The notes under the pieces: generated by a model
What the model saw: only the letters and a program-made list of their open reading frames with translations
Told to the model about the DNA's origin: nothing
Database searches by the model: none
Program-made: the position numbers and the translations under genes
In this document: piece after piece, positions 17,371-22,860 of the stretch
Position numbering within the stretch: position 1 is the stretch's first letter
Layout of the letters: each line of letters opens with the position of its first letter
IMG/VR virus record: IMGVR_UViG_3300010149_000150
Location: 1 to 25,677 of that record
Reading direction: 5' to 3' (one strand)
Length of the DNA: 25,677 nucleotides
Source: a virus

Positions 17371-17925
17371 ATGCCACTACCACATTATACCCAGTCAAGG
17401 GCCAGTAGCCAAAGGTACGAACCTATTCAGCCTAACCTATTTGAGGTGACTGTATTTTCACCACTAGGGGATGATACGGGTTTAATCTTAGAGCAAGTTA
17501 AAACTATCGGAGGTTTAAATAACTTAAACCCATCTGTAGATGCAGTAGGTCAAAAATATAAATTTGCTGACCGTTCATTTGCAAGTATGCCAGCTCAGAC
17601 CTTTTTAGATCTGACTATTAACTTTAGTCTTAACTTAAACGAAGCTAACGAAAATTACATTTACAATACATTCCGTAATTGGTACAAATTAATCTATGAT
17701 CCATTAACTGGTGAAATGGGATTAAAGAAAGACTATGTTGGAAGTATGATCATTGTACAATATAACAGAGCAGGAGATATCTTTAGAAAGATTACCTGTA
17801 AAGATGTATTCCCTACAGGTCAACCTGATTTTGTAGATGAATTGAATTATGAAACTCCAGATCCTGCTGAGTTAACAATGACTTATCGTTGTGATCACTG
17901 GGTTGAGGAAAATGTAGGTGCATAA
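17371..17925 (+). CDS. 19: Tail tube protein (gp19-like)
   Basis: 184 residues (T4 gp19 is 163). It forms the hexameric ring stack of the tube inside the sheath. The start, RYEPIQPNLFEVTVFSP, matches the R-x-x-x-P-x-x-x-N-x-F-E-V pattern of T4-like tubes. FLDLTINFSLNLNEANENYIYNTFRNWYKLIYDPLTGEMGLKKDY and the C-terminal IFRKITCKDVFPTG...ELTMTYRCDHWVEE strands complete the family pattern. It follows the sheath gene by 40 nt, the standard sheath-tube order, and is closed by a strong terminator. Confidence 0.93.
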   Translation: MPLPHYTQSRASSQRYEPIQPNLFEVTVFSPLGDDTGLILEQVKTIGGLNNLNPSVDAVGQKYKFADRSFASMPAQTFLDLTINFSLNLNEANENYIYNTFRNWYKLIYDPLTGEMGLKKDYVGSMIIVQYNRAGDIFRKITCKDVFPTGQPDFVDELNYETPDPAELTMTYRCDHWVEENVGA

Positions 17926-18017: not shown

Positions 18018-18488
18018 ATGACCATATTTAAAGTATTAAACAAAATTGATGGTAAGGTTTATGTAGGTTATTCGGTTAATGATAATCCTAATAACTTAGG
18101 ATCAGGTAAATATATTAAAAGAGCAGTTAAAGATTTTGGCACAAGATCTTTTGAAAAGCATATTTTAGAAAAATTTTCAACTGATGAATCATTAAGTCAT
18201 ATAATGGAAAGGCTAGAGTTTTGGATCAAAAAACATAAAGCCGATAATCCTAAGTATGGATATAACGAAAGCGTACAAGAATTAATACCACAAAAAAAGA
18301 GGCTTACGAAAAAACTACAAGTACTCTTAACACCAGAAGATGTTGATAATCTAAATACTATTATCATACAAAAATCAATGGAGAATAAAACAAAACCGAT
18401 GCCAGTATCTAGATATGTTAGACAATTAATAGTAGAACATATCGTTGCAGAAACAGCACCTGAAAAACAATTAATAAAAATTAAATAA
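18018..18488 (+). CDS. GIY-YIG endonuclease-like protein, possible free-standing homing endonuclease
   Basis: 156 residues. The N-terminal 85 follow the GIY-YIG layout: a first strand TIFKVLNKIDGK, the second motif VYVGYS, an LGSGK segment, the basic RAVKDFG helix (catalytic Arg region), the acidic helix ERLEFWIKKH (catalytic Glu region), and a closing YGYNES. The first motif tyrosine reads Phe (IFK), so either the GIY tyrosine is replaced or activity is altered. The YIG tyrosine, Arg, Glu and Asn candidates are all present. The C-terminal part (LTPEDVDNLNTII ... MPVSRYVRQLIVEHI) resembles a ribbon-helix-helix DNA-binding unit. It lies alone between the tube terminator and the gp26-like gene, a typical place for an intruding homing gene. 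Confidence 0.72.
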   Translation: MTIFKVLNKIDGKVYVGYSVNDNPNNLGSGKYIKRAVKDFGTRSFEKHILEKFSTDESLSHIMERLEFWIKKHKADNPKYGYNESVQELIPQKKRLTKKLQVLLTPEDVDNLNTIIIQKSMENKTKPMPVSRYVRQLIVEHIVAETAPEKQLIKIK

Positions 18489-18490
18489 TT

Positions 18491-19495
18491 ATGAGTAGTC
18501 ACGAAGACAATATTAAAAAAGAATTTGAAGAGGCTGAAGGTATAGTTGATACTACAGCTGAGGTAAAATCTAATGAAGATGGTAAAATTACTGAGTTAGG
18601 TAAAGTAGATACTAGCAGAGGATCTGGTGTAACATCTATAGATGATCCAGAAATACAAAGAATACAATCTTTAACTGGATATATTAAACTTGATTTATCT
18701 GGGTTTCCATCAGGTGGTCAGTTTTATAGAGATGATTTTGAAATTCATATCAGAGCCGCAAGGGTTGGTGAAATTAGAGAATTCTCAACATTAGATGAAG
18801 AAAATATATTAGATGTTGATGAAAAGCTAAACTCACTTCTAGTGAACTGTACAAAAATTATGTATGGTAACCAACGAGGTTCATATAGAGATATTCTAGA
18901 AGAAGATAGAATATATTTAATCTTATCTATCAGGGAGCTTACCTTTAAAGATGGTGAGAATAAATTAATGATGCCAGTCGGTAAAAAGAAATGTACGTCA
19001 GGTACATGTAAATCACAGGAATCAGTTGAACTTAAAACTCCTAATCTTCAATTTAATGAAACGGATGAATTGTTAGAAAAGTATTATGATCATGAAAACA
19101 AATGTTTTACTATACCTACGAAAAATCATGGTGAATTAACTTTAGCACCACCAACGATTGGTGTTATGAGATCTATTACAGATTGGATAAGAAAACGAGA
19201 ACAAGAAAATTTACCCTGGGATAAATCTTCTTTAGCCATATTGCCTTATATTCAAAGAGAATGGCGAGGATTTAATGATAAAGAAATATTTTCTGCCATT
19301 ACTAGTTTTCAAGGCTGGGATGCCAGTAAATTTTCGATCATATATAGATTAGTTGAGAAAGCGAAAATTGGAGTTAAACCTGAGTTTATCTATCCATGTG
19401 AAAGTTGCGGTGCGGAGGTCGCCGTTCCGCTCACGTTTCCCGGCGGGATCAAAGCTATGTTTATTGTTCAAGATATCTCTTCTGAACTTTTATAA
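18491..19495 (+). CDS. gp26-like baseplate / tail-assembly protein (zero-frame product)
   Basis: 334 residues. After a disordered acidic N-terminus (1-60) comes YIKLDLSGFPSGGQFYRDDFEIHIRAARVGEIREFSTLDEEN, the pattern of the T4_baseplate (gp26) family: K-L-P-S-G-G-x-x-Y, then a run ending in E-x-x-L/F. VNCTKIMYG, DRIYLILSIRELTF and two zinc-finger-like pairs follow (KKCTSGTCKS near 177; PCESCGAEV near 305). T4 gp26 is 208 residues. Position between tube and tape measure is that of tail-assembly chaperones (lambda G/GT) in many phages. The last codons are followed by an out-of-frame ORF with no ATG, which probably joins this one by frameshifting. Baseplate subunit and tail-assembly chaperone are both possible roles. 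Confidence 0.75.
   Translation: MSSHEDNIKKEFEEAEGIVDTTAEVKSNEDGKITELGKVDTSRGSGVTSIDDPEIQRIQSLTGYIKLDLSGFPSGGQFYRDDFEIHIRAARVGEIREFSTLDEENILDVDEKLNSLLVNCTKIMYGNQRGSYRDILEEDRIYLILSIRELTFKDGENKLMMPVGKKKCTSGTCKSQESVELKTPNLQFNETDELLEKYYDHENKCFTIPTKNHGELTLAPPTIGVMRSITDWIRKREQENLPWDKSSLAILPYIQREWRGFNDKEIFSAITSFQGWDASKFSIIYRLVEKAKIGVKPEFIYPCESCGAEVAVPLTFPGGIKAMFIVQDISSELL
19405..19452 (+). other. GC-rich island inside the gp26-like gene, upstream of the frameshift site
   Basis: About thirteen successive codons use mostly G/C third bases (GCG GAG GTC GCC ... CCG CTC ACG, then CCC GGC GGG ATC), unlike the A/T-ending codons around them. It contains GGAGGT (19414-19419) and two small hairpins: GCGGA/TCCGC (19412-19416 with 19426-19430) and TCCC-GGC-GGGA (19438-19448). 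It begins about 80 nt before the candidate slip site. Confidence 0.55.
19487..19495 (+). promoter_or_regulatory. Candidate programmed +1 ribosomal frameshift site CTT-TTA-TAA
   Basis: In the gp26 frame the last codons read GAA CTT TTA TAA. A +1 slip of the Leu tRNA from CTT to TTT gives TAT AAA GTT AGA and a long open frame to 19745. CUU followed by U is the slip used in the bacterial RF2 gene (CUU UGA). The site is one codon before the zero-frame stop. A -2 slip would reach the same frame. Confidence 0.55.
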
Positions 19496-19745
19496 AGTTA
19501 GAGTTTTATTATTAGAAAAGTTGCATCTCCAACCTTCTGAGTTGGATTTGCTTCCTTTCTATGAATATGAATACACTTTAGAAATGTTTAATGACATTCT
19601 TAAAGAGCGTAACGACGAAGACAGCAAGAATAGTCAGGCACAGTCGGATAAATATAATACTAGTAGCATGCAAAAATCTATGAGCAAAAGTGTGAGTTCT
19701 TTTAAAACTCCATCTATGCCAAATATAAGTATGCCAAAGTTTTAA
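19491..19745 (+). CDS. Frameshift extension of the gp26-like protein (GT-like tail-assembly chaperone part)
   Basis: This frame has no ATG before 19584; upstream only TTG (19353, 19464, 19521) could start it, and the part before about 19490 looks like a shadow of the gp26 frame. From TAT at 19491 it encodes 84 residues starting YKVRVLLLEKLHLQPSEL, then LPFYEYEYTLEMFNDILKER, followed by a Ser/Met/Lys-rich tail that is probably disordered. A join at CTT 19487-19489 gives a 417-residue fusion to gp26. A helix plus acidic segment and a disordered tail is typical of the T part of GT tail-assembly chaperones, and the tape measure gene starts 13 nt later. Separate initiation at TTG 19464 or 19521 is the alternative. 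Confidence 0.6.
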   Translation, partial: YKVRVLLLEKLHLQPSELDLLPFYEYEYTLEMFNDILKERNDEDSKNSQAQSDKYNTSSMQKSMSKSVSSFKTPSMPNISMPKF

Positions 19746-19758
19746 ATAAATAGATTGA

Positions 19759-22700
19759 ATGGCTATAGTAACTCTTAAAGATTTAATGGATCCTTTATCA
19801 AAGATAGAGGCAGCTGCACAGCAAACTAATGAAAAGTTAGATGCTATCGTAGCAGTCACTGTTGGTGCTTCTCAAAACGGTGTAGCTATTATTGATGAGT
19901 TACAAAAACAAACAATGTTACTATCGGAATTAGTTAGAACCAATCAAGAAATTGATGCTCAGACTGGTGCCAGTATTACTAAGTCTACTATACAATTACT
20001 TTCTCTTAGAAAAATTCTTAAAGCAATTCAGAAAGGTAATAAAGATGATAAGTCAAGTTCTAAAGCTAGTTCTACTGGCGGCCCTGGTAATAAAGTTGAA
20101 AAGGCTGGTGAGCTGTTACAAATGCTAGGCGTAGGTTCTTTAAAAACTGCAAAAGGAATGATGCTATGGGCTTTAGTACCAGCAAAGGGTGTTACTAAGT
20201 TTACTGAGTTTATAAAATCTACATTTGAAAAATTAGCAGAAACTGACACTAAGAAAGCTAAAGAAGGTATTGAAGCATTAGATTTAATGGGAGGTGCAAT
20301 TTTAAAATTCTCAAAGGCATTAGCCATATCAGCACTATTAATAATTCCTGGTATGATAGCTATACCGTTTTTAGCTGTATCTATATTGGCGATGGGTGGT
20401 ATAATGTCTTTATTAGGATCACCTAAATTTAATAAACGTATTAAAGCAGGTGGTGAATCTGTTGATATTATGGGTGATGCTATAAAAAAGTTTGCTATAG
20501 GATTAGCACTATTTTCATTAGTTGCACCACTCGCAGTAATTACAGCGCCACTCATGGCCGTATCTATGTTATTAATAGGTGGGGTTGTTTCTTTATTAGG
20601 ATCACCTAAGTTTAGTAAAAGAATACGTGCAGGTTCTACTTCATTATCTAGAATGGGTAATGCTCTAATAAAATTTACTGTAGGCTTAGTTGTCTTAGCA
20701 TTAGCAACAGCAGTTATTGCATCCAATCCTATATTAATAGCTTTAATGGCAGGTTCCATAGCATTAATAGGTGGAGCGGTTGCTCTCCTAGGTGGTAAAA
20801 AAATGTCTAAGCGAGTTAGAGCAGGTACTAGGAATCTTGGTCTATTAGGTTTAGGTATTGCTTTATTTGGTTTAGGTTATGGATTCTTTGCAAAAGCATT
20901 TCCAGAAAAAGCTACATTTAAGCAGGTATTGGTTCAGGCTGCTGCTATTGCCGGTATAGGTGGTGCAGTAGGTTTAATTGGTAAATTTAAAGTTAAAACT
21001 ATGGCTTCAGGTGCAGCAGCATTAGGTTTAATAGGATTAGCATTACCAATTTTTACAAAAGGCTATAAACCTTATGCAGCAGTTACAAAAGGAATGAGTG
21101 TTGAAGATGTAGGAATACAAGTTGCTGCTCTTTTCGGTATTGGTTTAGCAACAGTTCTTATAGGTAAATTTGGTATTAAAAATATTGCACAAGGTGCACT
21201 ATCATTTGCATTGACCGGTATTGCTTTAACTATATTTAATTATGGTTATATACCTTTTGCTTTAGCGACAGAAGGAATGAGTCTTGAAGATGTCGGTATG
21301 CAATTAGCTATTTTAGGTGGTATTGGAACTGTTATGTCTGTCGCTGGTATAGCAGTAGCTGCTTCTGGTGGATCTGCTATGTTAGGGCCTGCATTATTTG
21401 CTGCCGCAGGTGGTGCCTTATTAGCTTTAGCACCAGGGTTGGAAAAAATGAGAGATTTAGATTATACCAAGAAAGATGGTATAGCATTAGCTACTACTTT
21501 AGGTGCAGTTGCAATGGCATTTGCTGGTACTGCACCAAGCGAAGGTGAAGAAGGTGGTCTTTGGAGTGGAATTAAAGGAGCCTTTAGTAGAGTAGGTGAA
21601 TCAGGCGCTGGTCTTGCTGCCGCTGCTATGTATGCTGCCGCTGGTTTAGCATTACAAGAATTGGCAGAAGGTTTATCTGCATTTTCAAAAATAAACTTTA
21701 CTAAAAAAGAATCTGAAAAGCTCGGATTAGCATTAGGAACAATAACTGCTGCGTTTGCTCAAGCAGGTGGAGAAGCAGCAGATCCTGGTGGTGCACTTGG
21801 GGCAGTCTTTGGAAATACATTTAGCTCAAATGCTGTTGAGAAAGGTATAGATTCTGTAATGGATGCAGGTGAGGCGTTAACAAATATAGCCACTGGATTA
21901 AATGCATTCACTGGTATTAAAGATCCTGAAGGTTTAGCTACAAAAATTAAAGGTGTAGTAGGAATGGTTGGAGAAGCCTTTGCTGCAGTAGGTGGAGCAG
22001 AAGATAAGGATGGTGGTAGTTTCTTAGGATTTACCTGGGATGAAAATATTATAGAAAAAGGAATTGATGCAGTTGATGGTGCAGGTGATGCACTAGCGCA
22101 AATAGCAAAAGGTCTTAATAGTTTTGCTGGTGTTAAAGATCCTAAATTAGTAGCTAAAAAGGTATCTGATACATTAACTTTAATTGGTGGAGCCTTTATG
22201 AGTATAGGTGGTAAAAAAGAAGAAGACTCGGCATTGTTTGGTTTAATCAGTTGGGATGAAAATGCAGTAAACGAAGGTATTGAAGCCGTTGATGGTGCAG
22301 GTGAGGCATTGCTTGACATTGCTGAAAGCCTAGTTAAATTTGAAGGTTTAAAAAACCCTGAGAAAGTAGCAGAAGGTATTAAAAAAATATTTACATCAAT
22401 AGGTGATACTTTTATACATTTCTATTCACAAGATAATTTTTCTCGTGATGTAGATCATATGAAAGGGTTTATATCTCAATTAGCCGAAGCTGCTGGTTCA
22501 GGTGAATTGGCCACAGCAGCAACAGACTTAGATAATATTGCAGCTGCAATAAATTCTGTGGATATTTACAAAGCAGAAGCATTAGGTAATTTGTTTAAAG
22601 GTGCTAGTGATTTAGGTAATAATAGATCTGCGTATGAAGACTTACAAGGTGCAGTTGAAGAAATCAGAGATTTATTAAGTGAATCTACTGGCGGTACAAC

Positions 22701-22860
22701 AACTGGCGGTACAACAACTGGTGGTACAGGAGAAACTGGAAATACTAATATGAATAGTGCATTCCGAAAACTAACAGGAACTCTGTCTAGGATGGAAAGT
22801 ACACTAAGTTCCTTACCTAATGAGATTAGAGCTATTAAATTAGAACTACCTGAAGATTAA
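19759..22860 (+). CDS. Probable tape measure protein built from hydrophobic and amphipathic repeats
   Basis: 1033 residues, Ala/Gly/Leu-rich. The N-terminus (1-95) is helical (EAAAQQTNEKLDAIVAV) with a Ser/Gly linker at 95-115. Hydrophobic repeats follow: LLGSPKFNKRIKAG, LLGSPKFSKRIRAG and LLGGKKMSKRVRAG at about 218, 279 and 343, spaced 61-64 residues. Two copies of an LIGKF...GMS(V/L)EDVG module come next. A C-terminal set starts GIDSVMDAG, GIDAVDGAG and GIEAVDGAG at 696, 768 and 840, exactly 72 residues apart. A Thr/Gly microrepeat (976-990) and a final helix close it. Length, hydrophobic segments, location after the tube and chaperone-like genes and lack of enzymatic motifs fit a tape measure that sets tail length (T4 gp29 is shorter, 590). 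A membrane or baseplate hub protein is the alternative. Confidence 0.7.
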   Translation: MAIVTLKDLMDPLSKIEAAAQQTNEKLDAIVAVTVGASQNGVAIIDELQKQTMLLSELVRTNQEIDAQTGASITKSTIQLLSLRKILKAIQKGNKDDKSSSKASSTGGPGNKVEKAGELLQMLGVGSLKTAKGMMLWALVPAKGVTKFTEFIKSTFEKLAETDTKKAKEGIEALDLMGGAILKFSKALAISALLIIPGMIAIPFLAVSILAMGGIMSLLGSPKFNKRIKAGGESVDIMGDAIKKFAIGLALFSLVAPLAVITAPLMAVSMLLIGGVVSLLGSPKFSKRIRAGSTSLSRMGNALIKFTVGLVVLALATAVIASNPILIALMAGSIALIGGAVALLGGKKMSKRVRAGTRNLGLLGLGIALFGLGYGFFAKAFPEKATFKQVLVQAAAIAGIGGAVGLIGKFKVKTMASGAAALGLIGLALPIFTKGYKPYAAVTKGMSVEDVGIQVAALFGIGLATVLIGKFGIKNIAQGALSFALTGIALTIFNYGYIPFALATEGMSLEDVGMQLAILGGIGTVMSVAGIAVAASGGSAMLGPALFAAAGGALLALAPGLEKMRDLDYTKKDGIALATTLGAVAMAFAGTAPSEGEEGGLWSGIKGAFSRVGESGAGLAAAAMYAAAGLALQELAEGLSAFSKINFTKKESEKLGLALGTITAAFAQAGGEAADPGGALGAVFGNTFSSNAVEKGIDSVMDAGEALTNIATGLNAFTGIKDPEGLATKIKGVVGMVGEAFAAVGGAEDKDGGSFLGFTWDENIIEKGIDAVDGAGDALAQIAKGLNSFAGVKDPKLVAKKVSDTLTLIGGAFMSIGGKKEEDSALFGLISWDENAVNEGIEAVDGAGEALLDIAESLVKFEGLKNPEKVAEGIKKIFTSIGDTFIHFYSQDNFSRDVDHMKGFISQLAEAAGSGELATAATDLDNIAAAINSVDIYKAEALGNLFKGASDLGNNRSAYEDLQGAVEEIRDLLSESTGGTTTGGTTTGGTGETGNTNMNSAFRKLTGTLSRMESTLSSLPNEIRAIKLELPED
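22687..22731 (+). repeat. 15-nt tandem repeat encoding TGGTT
   Basis: Three consecutive copies of ACTGGCGGTACAACA, the last diverged to ACTGGTGGTACAGGA, in frame in the tape measure gene. They encode a flexible Thr/Gly linker before the last helix. The near identity suggests replication slippage. Confidence 0.9.

Follow-up and report, generated by a model that had tools for sequence, protein, structure and literature searches.

The tail gene locus

The window, by which we mean the whole stretch of DNA analyzed, is a 25.7-kb virus contig with T4-type genes for the major head protein, clamp loader, terminase, sheath and topoisomerase. The original prediction had called this a T4-like phage. T4-type replication, capsid and terminase genes are indeed present, yet the cultured phages closest to it are large phages of Bacteroidota. 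The features considered here are as follows.

17371–17925, + strand: tail tube protein (phrog_45/3629 tail tube, 2.6e-7 and 8e-7); found upstream of the chaperone gene in 92 of 97 testable junctions
18018–18488, + strand: ORF with a GIY-YIG domain, between the tube and chaperone genes (PF01541, 0.0096, under the curated cut-off; phrog_314, 3.6e-11)
18491–19495, + strand: zero-frame ORF of 334 aa, putative G-like (T4 gp26/gp51-like) tail/baseplate-hub assembly chaperone, ending in TAA at 19493–19495 (phrog_36717, 1.6e-26; weak phrog_150, 0.0019; Foldseek matches)
19472–19489, + strand: conserved 18-nt block GATATCTCTTCTGAACTT directly 5' of the shift, a candidate cis signal or nascent-peptide element (synonymous variation obs/exp 0.11)
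19487–19495, + strand: putative shift site CTT-TTA-TAA, with a proposed +1 slip of tRNA-Leu from CUU to UUU that skips T19490 (codon conservation, 88 haplotypes)
19491–19745, + strand: +1-frame extension of 84 codons plus TAA, a putative T-like domain (pN/pS 0.10; kept in all close relatives; helical model)
19523–19551, + strand: possible small hairpin inside the extension, of doubtful role (one covarying pair; ∼30 nt past the stop)
19759–22860, + strand: tape-measure-like ORF of 1033 aa, 13 nt past the extension stop (position and length; weak phrog_788 'tail protein', 3.9e-5; homologue downstream in 71 of 90 testable junctions)

The putative chaperone gene thus occupies the interval between the tail tube and tape-measure-like genes, the latter being weakly identified in its own right. 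A GIY-YIG-like sequence lies upstream of the chaperone gene in 85 of 97 relatives, which is unusually fixed for a homing endonuclease; the C-terminal half of the ORF in the window (18018–18488) may be another domain.

The 3' end of the zero frame reads GAA (19484), CTT (19487), TTA (19490) and TAA (19493). The open stretch of the +1 frame spans 19353–19745 and crosses the zero-frame stop; past that stop, its first ATG comes after 91 nt. A +1 shift at CTT would give a fusion of 417 aa with ELYKVR at the join. On all of these points the original prediction was accurate: the frames (18491–19495, and the +1 frame across the stop to 19745), the slip string CTT-TTA-TAA, the lack of ATG over the first ∼90 bases of the downstream frame, and the spacing of 13 nt between the end of the extension at 19745 and the ATG of the putative tape measure gene at 19759. 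Translation reproduced the 417-residue product with E-L-Y-K-V-R at its join.

Conservation of the junction and selection on the +1 frame

The comparison of homologous loci called for in the original prediction was made by scanning virus contigs, which yielded hundreds of encoding contigs and, with duplicates removed, 101 distinct junctions, 88 of them close. The close set was defined by an extension starting [YF]K[AILV][RK], and the constancy of these residues within it is therefore built in to some degree. The 13 junctions outside it are from distant phages and one broken contig (L289), and apart from these no junction was excluded for having other residues at the Phe/Tyr and Lys places. L289 has a frame break inside its chaperone gene (L289:3432-3476), probably a sequencing or assembly error.

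The recurrence of the arrangement goes well beyond chance: the zero-frame stop, the slip string with its variants and an open +1 frame are present in all of one set of 81 close junctions and in all 88 distinct close haplotypes. TAA stands at the same place in 88/88; UGA is never used. At codon –3, GAA is found in 83/88 and GAG in 5/88. Codon –2 is CTT in 85/88 and TTA in 3/88, with one inferred change on the tree, and CTT makes up only 25% of Leu codons. Codon –1 is freer, with CTT in 48/88, TTA in 34/88, CTA in 6/88 and 11 inferred changes. The open +1 frame is followed by a homologous extension in every close haplotype. The putative slip site, where the first ORF ends, is thus conserved in the close set.

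Distant relatives in which the extension is +1 to the first ORF include PAU, PTm1, pT24, MA9V-1/2, MaF61, Lak phages and several very large metagenomic phages. In Tenacibaculum, Chryseobacterium and Prevotella Lak phages and in PAU, the +1 relation comes with other slip strings. The distant strings are CTT-ATT-TAA (CTT-ATT being that of Chryseobacterium), TTT-TCT-TAA (PAU), AAA-GAA-TAA (LR756502), CTA-TTA-TGA, TTC-TTA-TTA-TAA and TTT-TAA. No relatives of the Chryseobacterium protein were found in IMG/VR, no relatives were found in the bacterial genomes searched, and alignment-wide scans of very divergent sets gave no conserved blocks to work from. The +1 extension of Lak-B5 (L093:4788-5190) has an in-frame TAG that is absent from Lak-C1, which fits TAG reassignment in Lak phages, and the extension motif lies ∼45–50 codons past the stop in it.

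We compared pN/pS between frames. In the +1 frame it is 0.15 for codons 3–7 and 0.10 over codons 3–30 (34 distinct sequences); the same bases, read in each of the other two frames, give values of 0.7 and 4.4. Before the shift the +1 frame is neutral (pN/pS 0.98), and 38 of the sequences examined have stops in it there, which places the start of the extra coding at the shift.

Two single positions sharpen this boundary (tree counts are minimum changes). The base after TAA is A or G only, with at least 12 changes on the tree of 88, and always makes Lys (AAA/AAG) in the +1 frame; among the other genes of these contigs, T follows TAA in 42% of cases. By itself this test is only suggestive, because transition bias favors swaps between A and G. 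The third base of codon –1 is a stronger case, because transversions are involved. It is T or A only, with at least eight changes between them, always giving Phe/Tyr in the +1 frame, and codon –1 is never CTC, CTG or TTG, although these three account for 16% of the gene's Leu codons. Retention of Phe/Tyr at this position indicates that +1 reading begins ahead of the stop. As judged from these substitution patterns, the +1 frame is under purifying selection, starting with the codons overlapping the stop itself. The second ORF thus overlaps the first, lacks a start of its own and is selected from the shift onward, a description that is not absolute, as 29/88 haplotypes have an ATG at +16 or +19.

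Proposed slip site, direction and alternatives

These comparisons across relatives support the frameshift reading of the original prediction, a gp26-like protein joined to an extension by +1 recoding at or beside CTT. We infer ribosomal slippage as the event, and it is very probable that recoding into the +1 frame yields a fusion of the gp26-like chaperone and the extension. With somewhat less assurance, we favor slippage at this particular CUU and in the +1 direction. A fraction of the ribosomes translating the gp26-like gene would shift to +1 within the last two sense codons and read 84 more codons, making the 417-aa fusion beside the normal 334-aa product. With the second Leu codon in the A site and TAA behind it, peptidyl-tRNA-Leu on CUU (19487–19489) would move forward by one base and re-pair with UUU (or with UUC, in relatives that have CTT-CTT); Tyr/Phe-Lys would then be read in the new frame. 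By standard codon–anticodon rules, on which all our statements on re-pairing are based, PAU (UUU-U) and LR756502 (AAA-G) share this geometry, with perfect re-pairing at codon –2. The TTA-TTA-TAA haplotypes and PTm1 are without a good re-pairing codon, which counts against the CUU slip.

Synonymous variation across codons –9 to –2 has an obs/exp of 0.11, versus a gene mean of 0.67, and is second lowest of 93 windows along the gene. The frozen block, given in the feature list, is without a Shine–Dalgarno (SD)-like run. No SD-like stimulator was found ∼3 nt 5' of CUU: GATATCTCTTCTGAA precedes CTT, and there is no AGGRGG upstream. Nor was a strong conserved 3' structure found at the usual stimulator distance. 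In the hairpin at 19523–19551, pair 70–80 is GC or AU with eight double changes (CAG_CTG in 48, CAA_TTG in 22), and total covariation is weak. We set this hairpin aside as a stimulator, since it is too distant (∼30 nt past the stop) and has one covarying pair. Farther upstream of the shift block, zero-frame codons –27 to –13 (19412–19455) form a GC-rich patch in an AT-rich gene. Within the patch GAG GTC and TTT CCC never vary synonymously, and the gene encodes a Cys-x-x-Cys motif; the patch is possibly a second RNA signal.

The same frame could be reached by a –2 slip at the last sense codon with the stop in the A site, an alternative that differs in mechanism only and would add one residue to the fusion (E-L-L-Y-K). 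It accounts for reading of the conserved Tyr/Phe codon, the A-site stop would provide a pause, re-pairing from UUA to UUU or from CUU to UUC is reasonable in most haplotypes, and –2 frameshifting is known in phage Mu (PMC5009743). But re-pairing would be poor for CTT-CTA and for the Chryseobacterium CTT-ATT, the PAU and LR756502 strings fit +1 at codon –2, and –2 slips are rarer in general. We regard a –2 slip as unlikely.

Somewhat less likely still is the absence of any frameshift, with the extension made as a separate small protein by re-initiation, from a non-AUG start (AUA at –20 or CUG at –11) or from the ATG at +16/+19. Across the 88 haplotypes there is no conserved ATG, GTG or TTG in the +1 frame from –59 to +15. 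CUG at –11 occurs in only 78/88 and so is not fully conserved, and AUA/AUC at –20 is explained by zero-frame coding, which imposes it. Relatives with an ordinary ATG for the second ORF, named in the original prediction as evidence against a shift, do exist, as a minority: the ATG 16–19 nt past the stop is present in 29/88 close haplotypes and missing from 59/88. Yet even in the haplotypes that have it, the K-x-R-V codons ahead of it (codons 2–6) are still selected, with a pN/pS of 0.14. Across the set, the +1 codons overlapping the stop are selected as well. Moreover, re-initiation needs neither a frozen CTT nor a frozen upstream block, and both are frozen.

Separate short genes are annotated in database records, and an ATG near the stop is also seen in PAU, PTm1, LR756502 and MaF61. 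Because MaF61 (ATGATGAGTAA) and PAU (GGAG, then ATGATG) have an ordinary-looking start at the junction, ATGATG in both, some lineages may have exchanged the shift for separate initiation, or may use both. Within the close set, 59/59 haplotypes without the early ATG have CTT, and 3/3 without CTT have the ATG. This pattern depends on just one inferred change, at codon –2; it fits a shift that would matter most where a start is absent.

The original prediction likened the CUU-U core to the slip of RF2 autoregulation. The likeness holds for CUU to UUU re-pairing just ahead of a stop; it fails for the stimulatory SD of prfB, which is missing, and for the A-site codon at the slip, which is UUA in the window. 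A full RF2-type switch, that is, CUU directly before the stop, stimulated by an SD and sensitive to release factor, seems highly improbable. The stop can directly follow the slip codon only in the CTT-CTT-TAA haplotypes (48/88), which have CUU-UAA; the TTA and CTA haplotypes (40/88, the window among them) are unable to slip in this way. The stop is always UAA and never UGA in the 88 haplotypes, and the Phe/Tyr codon is conserved although a slip at codon –1 would bypass it.

A sequencing or assembly error, or decay of a once-single gene, can be dismissed: indel errors do typically leave a one-base offset, but this one recurs in many independent contigs and finished isolate genomes, with both frames selected. 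Transcriptional slippage was rejected, as the T run is just 3–4 nt and is interrupted in CTT-CTT haplotypes.

Relationship to known tail assembly chaperones

The two halves were folded separately, from contig sequences only. The model of the zero-frame protein is of moderate confidence (pLDDT 75.5). Foldseek matched it to PAU gp93, pT24 and PTm1, then to hub and hub assembly proteins of T4 type (E from 4e-8 to 5e-3); the PDB gave neither a fold match nor a sequence match. T4 gp26 and gp51 both belong to phrog_150, and the predicted fold relates the protein to them; in sequence the tie is marginal (phrog_150, 0.0019). The C-terminal part of gp51 matches a separate 'hub assembly catalyst' family, phrog_634. 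T4 gp26 and gp51 (L094:7803-9229) are possibly a short/long pair arising from gene duplication instead of frameshifting. Synechococcus phage S-PM2 has no annotated gp26/gp51 pair between 18 and 140 kb.

The model of the extension, whose structure begins ahead of any ATG, comprises a helix, then a short one at PSELD, then a long one (pLDDT 70, pTM 0.33). Its sequence runs in the order helix, QPSEL turn, LPFYEYE, long helix and SMPNISMPKF tail. One member of the extension family matches a 'tail assembly chaperone' PHROG at 0.002. QPSEL..LPFYEYE recalls WPPSEL..MSLTEL of P2 E', a likeness below significance (hhalign probability 10%, 17 columns), and the extension has no match to PF06528 (P2 GpE).

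In position and form the pair resembles lambda G/GT (and P2 E/E+E'), with frames that overlap, lie between the tail tube and tape measure genes and would yield a long product made of the short one and a C-terminal extension. This analogy is the basis for the putative chaperone role, in which the short form would act like gpG and the long one like gpGT, the G-like part coating the tape measure and the extension recruiting tube subunits. The differences are that the shift here would be +1 (or –2) whereas that of lambda is –1, that the slip string is another one, two codons ahead of the stop, and that a gp26-like protein of 334 aa stands first, in place of a small TAC.

The +1 chaperone shift of haloarchaeal HSTV-2/HF1 is similar in gene position, direction, a site near the first stop and the lack of a conventional slip string; the HF1-group site sits inside a block of 15 bp, near the stop, that is perfectly conserved (PMC7230728). 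There the motif is TTT-CGC and the hosts are archaeal, whereas here it is CTT-YTN-TAA, and we do not claim homology. Tail chaperone shifts of –1, –2 and +1 are already known (PMC5009743), and in the PRFect actinophage set, 350/2718 annotated slip sites are forward (+1) (PMC10885494). The +1 direction alone is therefore not new. A 2016 review described G-T shifting as widely conserved 'except T4' (PMC5009743). T4 itself carries 26 and 51 as separate genes in divergent orientation. The literature searched, with subscription journals mostly outside coverage, holds no description of a shift in this gp26-like protein family.

prfB frameshifting occurs in most Bacteroidia (PMC8710568), and prfB, that of Flavobacterium johnsoniae included, has an SD-like run (PMC8710568, PMC12421855). 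The site described here differs from prfB in having no SD-like stimulator, UAA rather than UGA-C, and, in the window, a sense codon in the A site; no regulatory logic is implied.

For annotation, the second half in MA9V-1, PTm1 and PAU is currently a separate gene starting from an internal codon, and would need correction; the deposited genes (L086:4860-5036, L083:4103-4225 and L082:4091-4228, respectively) lose part of the conserved extension.

More broadly, we give about even chances to the idea that, across a large lineage of Bacteroidota phages, T4-type (gp26/gp51-like) tail assembly relies on a programmed frameshift, via an SD-independent +1 signal (a conserved block of 18 nt whose final CUU lies two codons ahead of UAA), with the separate genes of T4 as the derived state. 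The favored frameshift reading would itself extend the tail-chaperone frameshift, among the most general features of long-tailed phages, to a T4-type protein listed as lacking it. The junction would also provide a natural +1 recoding signal that works without a Shine–Dalgarno stimulator, from hosts whose ribosomes seldom use SD sequences. Such a signal would suit ribosomes that largely ignore them.
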